A stretch of DNA of 64,000 bases from Oricola indica (GTDB lineage: Bacteria > Pseudomonadota > Alphaproteobacteria > Rhizobiales > Rhizobiaceae), in contig NZ_JAINFJ010000005.1 of assembly GCF_019966595.1 (NCBI RefSeq), forward strand, positions 215,924 through 279,923, in the 5' to 3' direction. Below the pieces are notes generated by a model, which saw only the letters and a list, made by a program, of their open reading frames with translations, was not told the DNA's origin and made no database searches. Of this stretch, positions 1-7,300 are shown one piece after another. Both the position numbers and the translations under genes were made by a program. The stretch's first letter is position 1, and the number at the start of each line of letters is the position of its first letter.

Positions 1-1056
1 GTGCTGGAACAGGGTCGGGCCCGGCACCATGCCGTGCAACAGGAAGGCGCCCGCGATGATGCTGGAGATCACGTCGCCGGGAATGCCGAGCGTCAGGAGC
101 GGCACGAAGCTGGCGCCGTTGACGGCGTTGTTCGCGGCTTCGGGCGCAACGATACCTTCCTCGCAGCCCGTACCGAATATCTCGGGCGTGTCGGATTTGT
201 GCTTCGCCTCCGAATAGGCGAGGAACGCCGCCAGCGACTGACCGACGCCGGGCACGATCCCGACGATCGTTCCGATGATGCTGGAGCGCAGCAATGTCCG
301 GAAATGCTTCTTGAACATCGCCATCGTCGGGTAGCTGATGTGATAATTGGACCCGGCAGCCGTCTTCGCGATCTTCGGCCCGATCGTTCGCACGCCCTGA
401 TCCAGCACTTCCGAGATACCGAACAGGCCGATCAGCATCGGGATAAAGGATATACCGCCCTGAAGCTGGAATGTGTCGAACCAGAAGCGCGGCGTTCCAA
501 GAATGACGTCCGGACCGATCACTGCGAGCAGCATGCCCAGCGCACCCGACATCAGGCCCTTGACCATGTTGCCGGTGGAAACCGTCGCGATCACGGTCAG
601 CGCGAAGAGCGTAACGGCGAACATTTCGGGTGGGCCGAACTTCACCGCGACAGCGGCGAGCGGGGCCATGACGACGATCATCACGATATCGCTGAACGTA
701 TCGCCGAACACCGAGGCCGTATGCGCCAACGACAGCGCGCGGTTCGCCTCGCCGCGCTTCGTCATCGGATAACCGTCAAGCAGCGTCGCAGTGGAGGACG
801 CTGTCCCCGGCACGTTGATCAGGATCGCCGAGATCGACGCGCCGAACACGGCGCCCTTGTAGATGCCGACCAGAAAGACGATGGCCGCAACCGGTGAGAG
901 ATAGAATGTAAAGGGAATGAGGATGGCGACAGTCAGTGCGCCGCTCAATCCGGGTATCGCGCCGACAAGCGTTCCGACGAACACACCCGCCAGAATGTAG
1001 AGCAGGTTCTGCCACTGCGCGAAAAGAGCCAGACCTTCAAGGAATTGCGCGTACAT
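1..1056 (-). CDS. TctA-family large permease of a tripartite tricarboxylate-type transporter (partial, SlcG-like)
   Basis: This is the large membrane subunit of a TTT uptake system. It would move a substrate captured by the periplasmic TctC protein across the inner membrane. The reading frame opens with MYAQFLEGLALFAQ and runs off the window edge after 352 codons; family members are about 500 residues, so the C-terminal third is missing. Visible features are the N-terminal glycine-rich membrane motif GAIPGLSGAL, the conserved stretch INVPGTASSTATLLDG and a later GIVPGVGQSLAAFL repeat of the same type, within many hydrophobic segments. It begins 10 bases after the tctB stop, in the order tctC-tctB-tctA. 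Next to the suy/slc/com genes the likely substrate is sulfolactate, as for SlcG in Chromohalobacter salexigens. Family is certain; substrate is inferred from context. Confidence 0.9.
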   Translation of the reverse strand, partial: MYAQFLEGLALFAQWQNLLYILAGVFVGTLVGAIPGLSGALTVAILIPFTFYLSPVAAIVFLVGIYKGAVFGASISAILINVPGTASSTATLLDGYPMTKRGEANRALSLAHTASVFGDTFSDIVMIVVMAPLAAVAVKFGPPEMFAVTLFALTVIATVSTGNMVKGLMSGALGMLLAVIGPDVILGTPRFWFDTFQLQGGISFIPMLIGLFGISEVLDQGVRTIGPKIAKTAAGSNYHISYPTMAMFKKHFRTLLRSSIIGTIVGIVPGVGQSLAAFLAYSEAKHKSDTPEIFGTGCEEGIVAPEAANNAVNGASFVPLLTLGIPGDVISSIIAGAFLLHGMVPGPTLFQH

Positions 1057-1066
1057 CTCGAGAGCC

Positions 1067-1573
1067 CTACTGGAACAGCCGACCGAGCGGCAAAGGGATG
1101 TTCAGCAAGTCGCCAAACACGAAATAGAGAACCGCCATCAGCCCAGCCGTGACCAGAAAGGTCATCCACACGGACGCGCCGAGATAAAGCATGTACAGGA
1201 CGGCCACGATCGCCGTGGCGTAGATGTAGCCGATCCAGATCGTTCCGATCACGTAAAGCAGGATCAGCGCGATCGGGACGATTGCATTCAGCAGCGCATC
1301 CCTCGGCGTCGGTGCTTCATCGTCAGACGCGACCGGAAGCTCGTGGATCTCGTCCCCGCTGATGCGCCGCTTGAGCCAGAAGGCCGCAAGGAGCACGCAA
1401 AGGATCATCGAGAACAGGAGGACGACACGCGGGAAAAGCCAAGGCTGAATCCCGTCATCGTAAAGGCCGGGCGCTTCCTGCGGAGCGATGATGAAGAGCC
1501 AGAGCGCCAACGGGATCGCGACGATCGCAATGATCAGATCGAGATAGCCTTTGAGGGGGTTCTTGGAAAACAT
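1067..1573 (-). CDS. TctB-family small membrane subunit of the TTT transporter (SlcF-like)
   Basis: Small membrane subunit (about 168 residues) of the tripartite tricarboxylate-type transporter. I chose the ATG at 1573, giving MFSKNPLKGYLDL, because the first hydrophobic helix then begins about ten residues in. An in-frame upstream start would only add a basic tail unlike the family. Four hydrophobic segments are visible: around residues 12-30, 40-62, 90-125 (a double segment) and 135-160. This matches the TctB/DUF1468 plan. A charged loop rich in Asp and Glu lies near residues 65-85. The gene lies between tctC and tctA with short spacing, so the three should be co-transcribed. TctB proteins diverge quickly, so the assignment rests on position and topology as much as sequence. 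Confidence 0.85.
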   Translation of the reverse strand: MFSKNPLKGYLDLIIAIVAIPLALWLFIIAPQEAPGLYDDGIQPWLFPRVVLLFSMILCVLLAAFWLKRRISGDEIHELPVASDDEAPTPRDALLNAIVPIALILLYVIGTIWIGYIYATAIVAVLYMLYLGASVWMTFLVTAGLMAVLYFVFGDLLNIPLPLGRLFQ

Positions 1574-1738
1574 GAAAAACCTGTTTTTCGCGAAACACGA
1601 GACAAGCTGACGATACCCAAAAAGGGTACGCTTCCCTCGCAGACTTTGATTGGCTTCAACGCGCCCGCCGAGCGGCCATGCCGCCATCACGGGGTCCTTG
1701 GATCGCGTCCGCCCCGAAGAGCGGACGCGATGTCTTGC

Positions 1739-2707
1739 TTATTCCGAAGCGCCGAGCAGCTTGGAATACATCTCGAATTCGCGATCGACGCGCGCCTGGG
1801 TGTCTTCACGGGACATCCACTGCACAGAGACGCCAATTGCGCCCATGCGTTCCTGGAATTCCGGGTTTTTCACAACCTTCTCAAGCGCGTTTTCGAGCGT
1901 TTCCATGCGTTCTTCCGGCACGCCGACGGGAGCGTAAACCGCATACCAGGGGCTCAGTCCCGAAAATCCGACTTCGCTGAAGGTCGGCACGTCCGGAAAC
2001 TTCTCGAGGCGTTCGGCATTATCAACGACCAGAAGACGGGTCTTGCCGTCGGCACCGAGATCGCCGCGTACTTCCGTACCCGCAAGCTGAACCTGTTTGC
2101 CGTGAAGGGCCGCGATCACATTACCCGAACCGCCCATCGGCACGTGGCGGATTTTAAACCCGGCCTGATCGGAAATTCCCTTCATCGTCAGGTGGGCGAC
2201 GCTGTTCTCGCCGCTGGTCGCATAGGTGATCGACCCATCGGAAGCCTTAGCCGCCTCCAGGAAATCATCGAAGGTCTGCCACGGAGAATCCTTCGGCACG
2301 ACGAGTGCCGTGAAGAACGTGCCCACATGGCCGACCGGCGCGAGATCGCCCACATCATACGGCAAATCCTGAAGAATCGGCTTGGGGAGAACGGGACCCG
2401 CCGGCACCATGCCGAGCACATAGCCATCAGGACGCTGCGACACCATCCAGGCCGTACCGATCGTACCGCCGCCGCCGCTCGTATAGTTCGGCACGAGCGA
2501 AACGCCGAGTTCTTCCTGATAGAATGGAATGAGCGCCTGCGTCGCCACATTGGTGGAGCTGTTCGCACCGAACGGCACGTTGATCTGGATCGGCTTGGTC
2601 GGGAAATCGTCGGCCTGCGAGGGCGTCGCGGCGACCGACAGTCCGGCAATCGCGCCAACCGCCGCCATCAGCATCGGACGGTTCAGTTTCCGTAAGTAGT
2701 TCAGCAT
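1739..2707 (-). CDS. TctC-family periplasmic solute-binding protein of the TTT transporter (SlcH-like)
   Basis: Extracytoplasmic binding receptor (322 residues) for the TTT transporter. The start at 2707 (MLNYLRKLNRPM) has a strong ribosome-binding site, GGGAGG, just upstream. It places a signal peptide at residues 1-30, with a basic N-terminus, a hydrophobic core AAVGAIAGLSVAA and cleavage near SQADD. The mature start DDFPTKPIQINVPFG and the later GTIGTAWMVSQRPDGY and YAVYAPVGVPEE stretches are typical Bug/TctC features. Upstream lies a 256-base gap with the palindrome at 2870-2881, so this gene probably heads its own transcription unit (tctCBA). The family binds small carboxylates; the neighbours argue for sulfolactate. 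Confidence 0.92.
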   Translation of the reverse strand: MLNYLRKLNRPMLMAAVGAIAGLSVAATPSQADDFPTKPIQINVPFGANSSTNVATQALIPFYQEELGVSLVPNYTSGGGGTIGTAWMVSQRPDGYVLGMVPAGPVLPKPILQDLPYDVGDLAPVGHVGTFFTALVVPKDSPWQTFDDFLEAAKASDGSITYATSGENSVAHLTMKGISDQAGFKIRHVPMGGSGNVIAALHGKQVQLAGTEVRGDLGADGKTRLLVVDNAERLEKFPDVPTFSEVGFSGLSPWYAVYAPVGVPEERMETLENALEKVVKNPEFQERMGAIGVSVQWMSREDTQARVDREFEMYSKLLGASE

Positions 2708-2869
2708 GCGTTTTCCTCCCTTTGAAAACTCACCGAGCCAGACGCTCATCGCCTGTCCGGTAAAGACCGAAAGAGCGAACCGAAGACCGGTAACATGAGC
2801 GAAGCCTTCTCCGACGCCCACATGAGTTCTTCGGCAGTCCGTTCGGCATTCGATGCACCAGATAATGCA

Positions 2870-2881
2870 TCTTATATAAGA
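2870..2881. promoter_or_regulatory. Candidate GntR operator upstream of tctCBA
   Basis: The sequence TCTTATATAAGA is a perfect 12-bp palindrome, 163 bases upstream of the tctC start. The identical palindrome occurs at 6481-6492 in front of suyA and the GntR gene. Similarity continues past the palindrome on one side (CATAC here, TATAC there). An AT-rich palindrome repeated only at the two promoters of one pathway is what a shared regulator site would look like. The role as operator is inference. The TATAAG inside it could also serve as a -10 element on the minus strand. Confidence 0.65.
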
Positions 2882-2963
2882 CATACTAATTTGCCCCTGA
2901 ATGTGTGTCAACTGCCTACCGCCCCTGTAACCGGCTTTGCGAAACGTGGAATGAAGAACGAAA

Positions 2964-3959
2964 TCACTGGCCGAGCGCGGAAATCTGCGCCAGCAGATCG
3001 TCGTCGATCGAAATGCCTTTCTGCATGATCTCGGCCTTCAGTGACTGACGCCTGCGGCCCGGAACGCGCGCGCCGGGCATCGCGTCGATGAGCCCGGCCA
3101 ACACCGCGAATCGGCTCACCGCACTGCCTCCGAAAACCTCGGGATCGATCGCGATGATCAATTGTCCGGTACCCGGCGCCGCTCCCTCTCCGTCGAAGAA
3201 GGAAGTCGCTTCATAGCCGTAATTGGCGCCAGTCAGGCCCGCACACAGCATCTCGACCATGAGCGCGAGCGCTGTGCCCTTCGCATCGCCCATGGGCACC
3301 ATCGTGCCGTCGAGGGCAGCCTGCGCGTCGGTCGTCGGATTGCCCTCGCGATCAAGCGCCCACCCCTCCGGTATGGCGATGTCTTGCTGTTTGGCCGCCA
3401 TGATTTTCCCGCGCGCCACCTTGGACAGCGAGATATCGACCACCACGGGTCCGTGCTCGCCGGCGGGAGCCGCGAATGCGATCGGGTCCGTACCGTAAAG
3501 CGGTGTCTTGCCGCCCCAGGGCGCCATCGCGCTCGGCGCATTGGCGAACAGAATCCCGACGAGGTTCTTCTCCGCCAACCGCTCGACGATCGTGCCGGCG
3601 ACACCGCAATGATGCGACCGGCGAATGCCCGCCATGGCGATTCCCTGCAGCGTGGCCGCCTCGGGCAGGTTCTCCAGCGCAAGGTCGATCGCCGGATAGG
3701 CGAAGCCGTTTGCCGCATCCACCGCGAACGCGCCCGGCCGCTTCCTTTCAATCGTGGGAATGGCTTTCGCATCGACCTTGCCGGAAAGCGCCTGCGCGCA
3801 GTAGGACGGCATCCGGCGCAGCCCGTGACCGGACTGACCGGCCAGTTCGGCGGCGATCAGGGCGCGTGCGACCGACCCGGCATTCGCTTCGGACGCACCG
3901 CACCGAGCGAGCGTCTCGACGATGAGTGTTGTCGCTTCGGCGACCCCAAGCAGTTTCAC
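2964..3959 (-). CDS. comC: (R)-sulfolactate dehydrogenase, ComC-like (malate/L-lactate dehydrogenase family 2)
   Basis: NAD(P)H-linked oxidoreductase of the Ldh_2 family (331 residues), the family of malate, ureidoglycolate and sulfolactate dehydrogenases. In this setting it would reduce 3-sulfopyruvate to (R)-sulfolactate, the form cleaved by SuyAB. Visible family motifs are GHGLRRMPSY near residue 42, the RRSHHCGVAG segment near residue 112 with the expected active-site His, and the KGTALALMVEMLCAGLTG helix. The start is a GTG overlapping the slcC stop in the arrangement GTGA, so translation is probably coupled. From sequence alone the substrate could be another 2-hydroxy acid. The assignment depends on its position with SlcC-like and SuyAB-like genes, an arrangement known from Chromohalobacter salexigens. 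Confidence 0.85.
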   Translation of the reverse strand: MKLLGVAEATTLIVETLARCGASEANAGSVARALIAAELAGQSGHGLRRMPSYCAQALSGKVDAKAIPTIERKRPGAFAVDAANGFAYPAIDLALENLPEAATLQGIAMAGIRRSHHCGVAGTIVERLAEKNLVGILFANAPSAMAPWGGKTPLYGTDPIAFAAPAGEHGPVVVDISLSKVARGKIMAAKQQDIAIPEGWALDREGNPTTDAQAALDGTMVPMGDAKGTALALMVEMLCAGLTGANYGYEATSFFDGEGAAPGTGQLIIAIDPEVFGGSAVSRFAVLAGLIDAMPGARVPGRRRQSLKAEIMQKGISIDDDLLAQISALGQ

Positions 3960-4891
3960 GACGCGCTTTCCTTCAGATGTTTTGCAACGGTGTCCGCGGT
4001 CAGACGGCTCACCCGCACGTTCGATTCGTCCGTGACGCCCGCGATATGCGGCGTCAGAATGACATTCGACAAGCCGGCGAACATCGCGCCACGCTCTTCG
4101 GTCAGCGGCTCCTCTTCGAACACGTCAAGCGCCGCGCCGGAGATCTTGCCGGCCTTCAGCGCCGCCTGAAGCGCGAATTCGTCAACCGTCCCGCCGCGCG
4201 CGGCGTTGATCAGGACCGCACCCTTCTTCATTCTCGCGAAGGCTTCCGTTTCGATGATGTGCCGCGTTTGCGTCGTAAGCGGGATATGAAGGCTCACGAC
4301 ATCCGAAATAGATAGCAGTTCGTCGAGTGAGACGCGCCCCACATGTTTCCAGGCCGGATCGTCCGCCGCAACGAAAGGATCGCTCGCGACCACCGACATG
4401 CCGAGCGCGGCGGCCCGGCGCGCGACCTCGCGCGCGATCGAGCCGAAGCCGACGAGCCCCATCGTCTTGCCCGATATTTCGCGGCCGATAAGCGCCTGTC
4501 GCGGCCATTCGCCTGCGGCAACTGAGACGGTCGAAAGGTAGGCGCCGCGCAGCAGCATCAGCGCCGTTGTGATGACATATTCCGCCACCGAAAGATCGTT
4601 TGCGCCGGTCGCCGGAAAAACCGCGACGCCCCTCGCCTTGCAAGCATCGACATCAATGTTGTCGAGCCCGACACCGAGACGCCCGACGCATTGCAGCGCC
4701 GGTGCGGCTGCCAGGAGATCGTCTCGCACCTGCGTGCGATTGCGGACGAGAATCGCCTTGGCAACCCCAAGCGACGCCAACAGTTCCTCCGGGCGATCGA
4801 CCAGCGTGGGATCGAAGAGTACCGAGAAATCCTGGCGCAGCGTATCGACGGCAGCCTCCTCCATGAACTCGCTTATGACAATGTCATGCAT
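3956..4891 (-). CDS. slcC: (S)-sulfolactate dehydrogenase, SlcC-like (D-isomer-specific 2-hydroxyacid dehydrogenase family)
   Basis: NAD-dependent 2-hydroxyacid dehydrogenase (311 residues). In the sulfolactate pathway SlcC oxidises (S)-sulfolactate to 3-sulfopyruvate; with ComC this acts as a two-enzyme racemase. The Rossmann fingerprint GLVGFGSIAREVA lies near residues 145-157. The catalytic Arg is in NAARGGTVDE, the Glu in DVFEEEP and the His in LTPHIAGVT, all in the expected order. The gene starts about 75 bases downstream of suyB, with a 9-bp hairpin in that gap (4925-4948). It overlaps comC by four bases. The family also contains phosphoglycerate and hydroxypyruvate enzymes, so the substrate is inferred from the neighbours. 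Confidence 0.85.
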   Translation of the reverse strand: MHDIVISEFMEEAAVDTLRQDFSVLFDPTLVDRPEELLASLGVAKAILVRNRTQVRDDLLAAAPALQCVGRLGVGLDNIDVDACKARGVAVFPATGANDLSVAEYVITTALMLLRGAYLSTVSVAAGEWPRQALIGREISGKTMGLVGFGSIAREVARRAAALGMSVVASDPFVAADDPAWKHVGRVSLDELLSISDVVSLHIPLTTQTRHIIETEAFARMKKGAVLINAARGGTVDEFALQAALKAGKISGAALDVFEEEPLTEERGAMFAGLSNVILTPHIAGVTDESNVRVSRLTADTVAKHLKESAS

Positions 4892-4924
4892 GGCGTTTGC
4901 CTGTCCGATGGCTTGAAATGAAAC

Positions 4925-4948
4925 GGACCCGGCGATGATGCCGGGTCC
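4925..4948 (-). terminator. 9-bp hairpin between suyB and slcC (attenuator or weak terminator)
   Basis: The arms GGACCCGGC and GCCGGGTCC are perfectly complementary around a six-base loop (GATGAT). Reading on the minus strand the hairpin follows the suyB stop by about 20 bases and is followed by GTTTCATTTC, a poor U-tract. It may reduce readthrough into slcC-comC or protect the suyAB message from 3' decay, rather than stop transcription completely. Confidence 0.5.
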
Positions 4949-4966
4949 GGAATTGGCAGGGCCTAA

Positions 4967-6148
4967 TCAGGCGCTCCGGTAGAGTTTCGTCATGACGAAC
5001 TCGCGGTGACCGAGCGCCTCGGCCGCCGTGCTTCGCCCATTCGACGTGCGGACGATCATATCGATCAGGGCATCGCCCGCCTCGTCGATCGTCATCTCGC
5101 GCCGCAGGATGCCCGAAACATCGACATCGACATGCTCGCCCATTGTCCGGATCGTCCGGGGATTGGCCGATATTTTGATCACGGGCACGATCGGGTTGCC
5201 GATAACATTGCCCTGTCCCGTCGGGAATGTGTGTACCACATATCCGGCGGCCGCCATGAGCGTCACGCATTCGGCCGCGGCCGACGACGTGTCCATGAAA
5301 TAGAGACCTTTTCCGGCTACCGGCGCCTCCGCCGGCTCGAGGATATCGATATAGCGCGATTCGCGGCCGATCTTCTCGAGATTGCCAAGCGCCTTTTCCT
5401 CGATCGTGGTCAGGCCACCCTCGATGTTGCCCTTCGTGGGCTGGCTTTCCGACAGGTCGTCCGTCTGGTGCGCGAAGATCACGTCATCCTGGTAGGCCTT
5501 CCACATCTTGTACCAGCGCTCGCCGACTTCCTCGTTGATCGCGCGCGCCTTGCAGATGTGCTCGGCACCGGTGATCTCGGAGGTTTCTCCGAAACAGCCA
5601 TAGATACCTTCCGGCAGCAGCTTGTCATACATATTGCCGACGGTCGGGCAGGATCCCAGTCCGGTCGTCGTGTCGCTCTCGCCGCATTTGGTGGAGACCC
5701 AGAGATCGGAGATCGGGCATTCGACGCGCTGCAGTTCGGACGCGTAATGCACGAAGCCCTTGGCCGCGCGCGACGCATCCATGATGGTCTTGAGATCACC
5801 GTTCTGCTCGATGGAGAAGGCCGCCACCGGCTTGCCGGTTTCGGCAATCCCGTCCGCGATCTTCTGTGTCCAGCCCGGCTCGATACCGATCACGACCACG
5901 GCGGCGACATTCGGGTTCGCGCCCGTGCCGATCATGGTGCGGAAATGCAGATCGAGATCCTCGCCGAACTGAAGACGCCCATAAGCGTGCGGAAGCGCGA
6001 GTGTGCCCTTGATATTGTTGGCCACCGCCTCGCATGCCGCATTGGAAATGTCGTCGACGGGAAGGATTACCACATGGTTGCGCACGCCGACGCGACCGTT
6101 GTCGCGGCGATACGCCATGATGGTAAGATTTGAATATTGCGATGCCAT
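4967..6148 (-). CDS. suyB: (2R)-sulfolactate sulfo-lyase, large (beta) subunit
   Basis: Catalytic large subunit (393 residues) of sulfolactate sulfo-lyase, which cleaves (R)-sulfolactate to pyruvate and sulfite in the cytoplasm. It belongs to the altronate/galactarate dehydratase (UxaA C-terminal) superfamily. The start [15 protein letters not shown] at 6148 fits the family; a longer in-frame extension overlaps suyA and is discarded. Family-like blocks are [16 protein letters not shown] at the N-terminus, [17 protein letters not shown] near residue 165 with conserved Cys and Ser/Thr, and [18 protein letters not shown] near residue 320. It lies 17 bases after suyA, as separate subunits of one enzyme. 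SuyAB is distinguished from sugar-acid dehydratases mainly by this overall sequence and by the adjoining SlcC/ComC genes. Confidence 0.9.
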
Positions 6149-6165
6149 TCGACAGCCCTCCCCGG

Positions 6166-6453
6166 CTACCAGCGCTTGGTTTTCAGATTGTGGACGTGGA
6201 CGTGGCCGCCTTTTTTCACATCGGCGGTGAATTTCCCGATGTCCTCGCCATATTTGATTGCGGTCTCGCCCGCCTTCAGGTCGCGCAAAGCCACCTTGTG
6301 CCCGATCGGCACGTCGTCTCCGACCCCCAGATTGAAACTGGAATTGTCGGCCGTGACGACGCAAAGCATGTCGGTTCCAGCCTCGAGATTCTCCACCACG
6401 ACCACGCCGACATTGTCGGCATGTTCATGGACTAGCAATTGTGGTGCGGTCAT
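6166..6453 (-). CDS. suyA: (2R)-sulfolactate sulfo-lyase, small (alpha) subunit, SAF domain
   Basis: Small subunit (95 residues) of sulfolactate sulfo-lyase. It consists of one SAF-type domain, the same fold as the N-terminus of altronate dehydratase. Recognisable parts are the histidine-rich start [14 protein letters not shown], the [17 protein letters not shown] segment (the usual hinge of UxaA N-terminal domains) and the C-terminal [16 protein letters not shown]. The start ATG at 6453 has a good ribosome-binding site, GGAAGGAG. The gene heads the suyAB unit, and the palindrome at 6481-6492 lies 28 bases upstream in the core promoter. Confidence 0.9.
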
Positions 6454-6480
6454 TCAGTGCTCCTTCCCTACTCCGCTAAC

Positions 6481-6492
6481 TCTTATATAAGA
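6481..6492. promoter_or_regulatory. Candidate GntR operator in the suyA / regulator divergent promoter
   Basis: Second copy of the perfect palindrome TCTTATATAAGA, in the 55-73 base gap between the divergent suyA and GntR genes. Its position suits both repression of suyAB and autoregulation. GntR proteins bind short AT-rich palindromes close to promoters, so this is the best operator candidate, though no binding is shown by the sequence itself. Confidence 0.7.
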
Positions 6493-6508
6493 TATACGAT
6501 ACATAATA

Positions 6509-7300
6509 GTGGAACTGTCAAGCGCGATGCACTATTATCAGGCACCGAAATTGCGAAGGAGCGCCGGCCCGTTGTCCGCAGAACACGAAGCACTGGACTA
6601 CAAACCGCTTTACGCCCGCATCCGTGACCGCCTTGTCGGCCGCCTCGTCGATGGCCAATGGACGCCGGGCATGCTGATTCCCAGCGAGATGGAACTCGCC
6701 CGCCAACTCGGCGTGAGCCAGGGAACCGTCAGAAAGGCGCTGGACGTTATGGCCTCGGAAAACCTGCTCGTGCGCAGGCAGGGGCGCGGCACCTATGTCG
6801 CGGTACCCGAGGAAGGTCCGCAGCAGTTCAAGTTTTTCCGGCTTCTGCCCGACGACGGAAGCCGCGTGCTTCCGGAATCGGAGGTCGTGCGCCGTCGCTC
6901 GGCGAAAGCGTCCGCAATGGAAGCCAAGATGCTGAAAGTGCCACCAGACAGCCAGCTCTGGACCGTCGAGCGCGTCCGGTTTCTCGGTGAGGAACCGCTT
7001 CTGGTCGAAACCATCATCTTGCCGGCGGCGCGGTTTCCCGGTTTCGACGAGGTCAACGACCTGCCGAACAATATCTATGGCCTTTACGCGGAACGATGGG
7101 GCGTCACTATCTCGGCAGCCTCCGAAAAGCTCAAGGCGGTCGCAGCGGAAAAGAACGACGCTGAGCTTCTCGGTTGCGCGTTGGGAGACCCGCTCATCCA
7201 GATCGAGCGCATCGGCTACGACCTGGAAAACACACCCAGCGAAATCCGCGTCTCGCGATGCAATACACGCAACGCGCATTATGTTTCTGTGGTGCGATAG
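6509..7300 (+). CDS. GntR-family transcriptional regulator with UTRA domain (probable sulfolactate regulator)
   Basis: Regulator of about 260 residues. An N-terminal winged helix (residues 30-97) shows the GntR pattern: LYARIRDRLVGRLVDGQW, IPSEMELARQLGVSQGTVRKAL and the wing RRQGRGTYV. The C-terminal part (about 115-260) is a UTRA ligand-binding domain with PLLVETIILPAARFPG and the final GDPLIQIERIGYD. The frame opens with GTG at 6509; an ATG at 6527 (MHYYQAPKL) is an equally possible start, and neither has a strong ribosome-binding site. It is divergent from suyA and shares its promoter region, which holds the palindrome 6481-6492. The effector is likely sulfolactate or a pathway intermediate; this is inference. 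Confidence 0.88.
   Translation: MELSSAMHYYQAPKLRRSAGPLSAEHEALDYKPLYARIRDRLVGRLVDGQWTPGMLIPSEMELARQLGVSQGTVRKALDVMASENLLVRRQGRGTYVAVPEEGPQQFKFFRLLPDDGSRVLPESEVVRRRSAKASAMEAKMLKVPPDSQLWTVERVRFLGEEPLLVETIILPAARFPGFDEVNDLPNNIYGLYAERWGVTISAASEKLKAVAAEKNDAELLGCALGDPLIQIERIGYDLENTPSEIRVSRCNTRNAHYVSVVR

Follow-up and report, generated by a model that had tools for sequence, protein, structure and literature searches.

The eight genes at the left end of the window (the whole stretch of 64,000 nucleotides of Oricola indica DNA analysed here) very probably form a sulfolactate cassette of the Chromohalobacter/Paracoccus type, in which a predicted racemase pair, a putative importer and a predicted repressor with two sites accompany the sulfo-lyase, and sulfite is handled elsewhere. 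Cassettes of this kind are already known; this one has an importer that by tree is not SlcHFG, and a predicted two-site operator. An earlier note had proposed sulfolactate catabolism for this DNA, and the proposal is well supported, by sequence rather than by assay. It had also called the locus complete, which holds for catabolism and regulation but not for the transporter, which is not of the known sulfolactate type, nor for sulfite handling, which does not lie in the locus.

Gene order and proposed pathway

The arrangement described earlier, eight genes side by side, is borne out by the open frames and their Pfam matches, which place seven genes on the minus strand and the GntR/UTRA regulator alone on the plus strand. 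Transcription on the minus strand runs suyA-suyB-slcC-comC and, after a gap of 256 bp, tctC-tctB-tctA. The features are as follows.

1..1056, minus strand: tctA, large membrane subunit of the TTT transporter (PF01970, 394 bits)
1067..1573, minus strand: tctB, small membrane subunit (PF07331, 53.5 bits; frame open, start codon picked by eye)
1739..2707, minus strand: tctC, substrate-binding protein (PF03401, 151.7 bits; not in the SlcH group of the tree)
2870..2881, no strand: palindrome TCTTATATAAGA, predicted operator upstream of tctC (motif search)
2964..3959, minus strand: comC, predicted (R)-sulfolactate dehydrogenase of the Ldh_2 family (PF02615, 325.5 bits)
3956..4891, minus strand: slcC, predicted (S)-sulfolactate dehydrogenase of the D-2-hydroxyacid dehydrogenase family (PF02826, PF00389)
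4967..6148, minus strand: suyB, predicted large subunit of (R)-sulfolactate sulfo-lyase (PF20629 and PF04295, the second and C-terminal GD_AH domains)
6166..6453, minus strand: suyA, predicted small SAF-domain subunit (PF08666, 21 bits, exactly at the cut-off)
6481..6492, no strand: palindrome TCTTATATAAGA, predicted operator in the intergenic region between suyA and the regulator gene (motif search)
6527..7300, plus strand: SuyR-like GntR/UTRA (HutC-type) regulator (PF00392, PF07702)

The comC and slcC frames share four bases. The gene tctA is truncated by the left end of the window, and its whole length, 512 aa, is found on the same contig (L005 11442-12980); the other seven frames have start and stop codons and no internal stops.

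The analysis shows which genes are present, to which families they belong, what surrounds them and how the palindrome is conserved; from this we infer all the reactions, what is transported, how repression works and is lifted, and what becomes of the sulfite. Uptake of sulfolactate or a close relative is probably the task of the neighbouring TTT transporter, which is of another lineage than SlcHFG. SlcC would oxidise (S)-sulfolactate to sulfopyruvate and ComC would reduce sulfopyruvate to (R)-sulfolactate, so that the pair would act as a racemase, and SuyAB would split (R)-sulfolactate into pyruvate and sulfite. Two units, suyAB-slcC-comC and tctCBA, are probably under the control of the GntR/UTRA regulator, which would repress them via TCTTATATAAGA at each promoter and leave the DNA on binding the substrate or an intermediate. 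Genes elsewhere in the genome probably deal with the sulfite, through a Sox system that oxidises it or TauE-type proteins that export it.

The closest model is the sulfolactate cluster of Chromohalobacter salexigens, reportedly described by Denger and Cook in 2010, which we take to consist of SuyR, SlcHFG, SlcC, ComC and SuyAB. By gene list, not by sequence, the function set is the same (lyase, two dehydrogenases, TTT-type transporter and regulator); however, the window's transporter belongs to another TTT lineage and has the order C-B-A. Cluster 2 of Paracoccus wurundjeri, as far as an excerpt of PMC12421959 goes, has SuyA, SuyB, SlcC and ComC in this order by locus number, but is tied to sulfofucose breakdown and carries an ABC transporter.

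The predicted sulfo-lyase and dehydrogenase pair

Trees, diagnostic columns and gene neighbourhoods all support reading the lyase as SuyAB, the predicted sulfo-lyase of this locus. Pfam finds a separate small SAF subunit beside a large one, as expected of SuyAB, and the window's suyA is 40-80% identical to suyA copies beside suyB. The earlier note had named firm branching of the large subunit with altronate or galactarate dehydratases as an outcome that would speak against a sulfo-lyase; such co-branching was looked for and is absent, and SuyB falls in a separate clade with 100/100 support. In a tree of 79 rows, a single branch (100/100, and present in 100% of 200 bootstrap trees) splits 47 SuyB rows, the window included, from 32 UxaA/GarD-like rows. 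The window's clade-mates include SuyB of the Cupriavidus DHPS locus, of Paracoccus and of Halomonadaceae, and the opposite side holds UxaA and GarD of E. coli together with three paralogues from the window's own genome. A long-branch warning applies to this tree, including the own paralogue of 34% identity (L002) that adjoins the SuyB clade. The rows were drawn from 14 of 80 genome-contig loci, 5 of 316 plasmid records and further complete loci, with L020, L022 and L053 left out and reading strands chosen by similarity. The anchors of the SuyB, SlcC and ComC trees are relatives of characterised strains plus the annotated Cupriavidus locus, none itself experimentally characterised, since Chromohalobacter was absent from the 80 loci returned by the gammaproteobacterial query.

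The columns of GarD C144, C179 and C215 hold cysteine in 30/32, 24/32 and 30/32 of the UxaA-like rows and in 0/47 SuyB rows, and the column of C288 holds it in all rows of both sides (47/47 and 32/32). These columns presumably correspond to the published iron-ligand positions: according to an excerpt of PMC6336799, UxaA/GarD enzymes share four conserved cysteines that serve as iron ligands, sulfolactate sulfo-lyase being the exception. Furthermore, identities to SuyB fall into separate ranges. When the window's SuyB itself is set aside, its matches in 61 genomes, the own genome among them, are either 79-90% or at most 35% identical to it; among the best 60 of 316 plasmid records, 13 lie at 59-90% and the remainder at no more than 38%; and of the four UxaA-like matches in the own genome, the three besides SuyB have 30-34% identity to it.

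Galactarate/altronate dehydratase is the only name that Pfam and NCBIfam give SuyB, and one might therefore read the two-subunit lyase as a sugar-acid dehydratase (for altronate, galactarate or a similar compound) and the dehydrogenases as serving sugar-acid metabolism. We consider this extremely improbable. SuyB reaches 132 bits against the NCBIfam galactarate model, whose cut-off is 731, and the separate clade and the lack of cysteine at three UxaA/GarD columns speak against this identity for SuyB; moreover, lyase genes of the clade stand beside, among others, hpsN/O/P-like genes, slcC, comC and genes annotated as sulfate exporters. The clade copy of Cupriavidus pinatubonensis comes from an annotated hpsN-hpsO locus, and those of Paracoccus versutus and Rhodobacteraceae SC52 adjoin an annotated 'putative sulfate exporter'. 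The Cupriavidus pinatubonensis locus, of DHPS type, resembles the window's in having SuyA and SuyB of the same clade but differs in carrying hpsN, hpsO, an alcohol dehydrogenase (which we take to be HpsP) and an MFS transporter, and no slcC or comC match occurs in its 25 kb stretch.

A second locus in the own genome (L203 7507-12760 onward; G000:C22, about 558-564 kb) has TctC-, TctA- and SuyB-like genes and a separate SuyA-like gene, the latter two at 34%. Although L002, the SuyB-like protein of this locus, is not a member of the SuyB clade, it too lacks cysteine at the three UxaA columns.

The predicted sulfolactate dehydrogenases, as assigned in the earlier note, are likewise supported by trees and by suyAB neighbourhoods. 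The window's SlcC falls in a group with support 97/99, together with all of the 29 cassette copies but the one from Rhodococcus; the very distant own paralogue L190, on a branch of 8.43, falls there as well. Identity of the window's slcC to these 28 copies is 54-66% (57-61% for Halomonadaceae copies), versus 42% to the Rhodococcus copy and at most 43% to own-genome paralogues. ComC groups, with support 85/93, with 32 of 35 copies from suyAB loci, to which it is 40-68% identical (nearest copy 68%, Halomonadaceae copies 46-50%); the three copies outside stand at 33-36%, and the single further comC match in the own genome at 24-27%. Against the NCBIfam L-sulfolactate dehydrogenase model NF040650 the window's ComC scores 208 bits, below the cut-off of 500; this curated name model was probably built on another branch.

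Among the 80 genome-contig suyAB loci, comC-type genes occur in 45 and slcC-type genes in 37, and in the 46 loci of at least 19 kb the counts are 34 and 26. Regulator, suyA, suyB, slcH, slcG, slcC and comC stand together in the Halomonadaceae loci L081, L082 and L083, and hpsN/O/P-like genes take the place of slcC and comC in L080 and L085. As many suyAB loci have no slcC or comC, suyAB alone does not imply a racemase. The racemase role of the sulfolactate dehydrogenase pair was reportedly established by Denger and Cook in 2010. That paper is cited in the excerpts of PMC12421959, PMC9594981, PMC6018796 (racemase role) and PMC5812351, and SlcC of C. salexigens, in an excerpt of PMC6303947, is placed in or beside the SerA clade and does not accept 3-phosphoglycerate.

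The transporter and its shared palindrome

The suggestion that the TTT transporter is SlcHFG is not supported. The window's TctC stands outside the SlcH group at 28-33% identity, and the subunit order is C-B-A. Nine SlcH rows group at 100/99 without it (Halomonadaceae, the gammaproteobacterial assembly L145 and the order genomes L161, L162, L166 and L167); its own branch measures 1.73, and by path length two TctC proteins of the own genome come closest to it. The deeper nodes of this tree are weakly supported (73/70), and two of six own paralogues (L180, L181) are absent from it for lack of a tblastn match at E 1e-3. In the TctA tree, too, nine SlcG rows group (98/99) with the window outside, at a place made unsure by long branches. 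In known slcHFG systems tctB lies downstream of tctA, as stated in an excerpt of PMC5812351, and so it does in locus L082, of C-A-B type; the window's order is different. In L166 (10835-12805), an SlcHFG-type TctA and TctB are apparently fused in one frame of 656 aa.

Since the transporter is not SlcHFG, its substrate can only be inferred, and tctCBA might be a mere neighbour importing another compound, with only the lyase and the dehydrogenases forming a sulfolactate module. In keeping with this, the window's TctC, besides lying outside the SlcH group with an unlike subunit order, matches no genome but its own at E<=1e-60 in an even 397-genome sample from this order (up to five candidates were scored in each), and in plasmids no match of at least 60% was found for TctC (884 records; best among the matches listed 33.6%) or for TctA (812 records; best among the matches listed 47%). 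Nevertheless, the same rare palindrome precedes both tctC and suyA, and tctC lies on the same strand as comC, 256 bp downstream of it, which makes an unrelated neighbour rather unlikely. Quite possibly, though we put this forward tentatively, tctCBA is a further, separate lineage of sulfolactate importers that was recruited in place of SlcHFG under the same operator. The locus would then show a conserved sulfolactate core (SuyAB, SlcC, ComC and regulator) with an exchanged importer. In the tree, seven further TctC proteins from suyAB loci also lie apart from the SlcH group, and therefore importer exchange would not be unique to this genome.

The palindrome TCTTATATAAGA occurs exactly twice in the window, before suyA (6481-6492) and before tctC (2870-2881), and in 0/100 shuffles, with up to one mismatch allowed. 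Its 13-base form, again with up to one mismatch, is found at three places in the 5.09 Mb genome, two of them at this locus, and the reversed control at none. A TTGACA hexamer precedes the three genomic sites by 23, 24 and 17 bases; this spacing would put the palindrome across the -10 region or behind it, as expected of a repressor site.

The GntR-family gene is divergent from suyA, as expected of SuyR and as in many relatives, and the palindrome follows the kind of this regulator. The count covered 107 loci of the SuyB clade in which at least 400 bp precede suyA, the window and known duplicates of one locus being left out. If one mismatch is allowed, the palindrome stands upstream of suyA in 17/22 loci whose divergent GntR is at least 41% identical to the window's regulator, in 4/4 with a Paracoccus-type GntR, in 0/42 with a more distant GntR and in 3/39 where no divergent GntR was found, the 41% boundary having been set after the data were seen and related loci not being independent. 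The reversed palindrome is found in 0/107. Of the five misses among the 22, four are from Halomonadaceae, where the palindrome has two or three mismatches, and the fifth (L173) duplicates one of these four, L082. We thus predict that TCTTATATAAGA is the operator of the adjacent GntR/UTRA regulator.

The type of motif is already known, since an excerpt of PMC4494728 prints TCTTATGTCTTATATAAGACATAAGA, a palindrome containing TCTTATATAAGA, as the motif of the HutC-type regulator SdhR; the operators share the palindromic core, but the published one is reported for SdhR and not for a sulfolactate regulator. Among the literature matches listed, that paper alone prints the motif, and none assigns TCTTATATAAGA to a sulfolactate regulator. 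One could accordingly ascribe the palindrome to a different, SdhR-like regulator, all the more as the third genomic site precedes a TRAP operon with no match to the window's regulator within the fetched 16 kb. That it tracks the kind of adjacent regulator across the 107 loci, and that the genome has just three sites, argues against this ascription, which we hold to be distinctly unlikely, and for the adjacent regulator as the predicted owner of the site.

The third genomic palindrome (L200 8125-8136; G000:C11:578123-578136), 17 bases after TTGACA, is upstream of a TRAP operon with DctP and DctM (Pfam) beside a GMC oxidoreductase, an amidohydrolase and a cupin protein, and may be a further target of the window's regulator or of another. 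On a Sinorhizobium mexicanum plasmid, an extra palindrome lies about 2.7 kb from suyA (L037 6008); this species is among those with candidate sulfofucose pathways in an excerpt of PMC12421959. Many plasmid records, among the matches listed, annotate the lyase just as 'UxaA family hydrolase', and for such cases the predicted operator could offer a sequence handle on sulfolactate regulons.

Sulfite handling and DHPS-type loci

The earlier note had placed sulfite handling beyond the left end of the window or elsewhere. For the first alternative, the 11.9 kb to the left yielded no exporter or sulfite oxidase among ten proteins scanned, the leftmost, cut, SDR-like frame of L005 not being one of them; the ten comprise oxidoreductase-type enzymes (some of them CoA-linked), a beta-propeller protein and a weak TetR-like match. 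For the second, candidates lie elsewhere in the genome. TauE has ten own-genome matches over the cut-off, and PF00174 has two, one MsrP and one SoxC (649 bits vs a cut-off of 420), the latter adjoining a SoxB frame (564 vs 550 bits) away from the sulfolactate locus. The SuyZ-type family PF03601 was not found in the own genome by a search whose control detected it in 6/14 known genomes.

Feed-in of DHPS via HpsN was also considered and rejected: the sole own-genome match to the Cupriavidus HpsN scores as histidinol dehydrogenase. In a genome of the window's genus (G002), a locus where the palindrome is absent at up to one mismatch (L163) represents the other type of SuyAB locus, with a TRAP transporter, hpsN-, hpsO- and hpsP-like genes, suyA, suyB and an exporter of SuyZ type.
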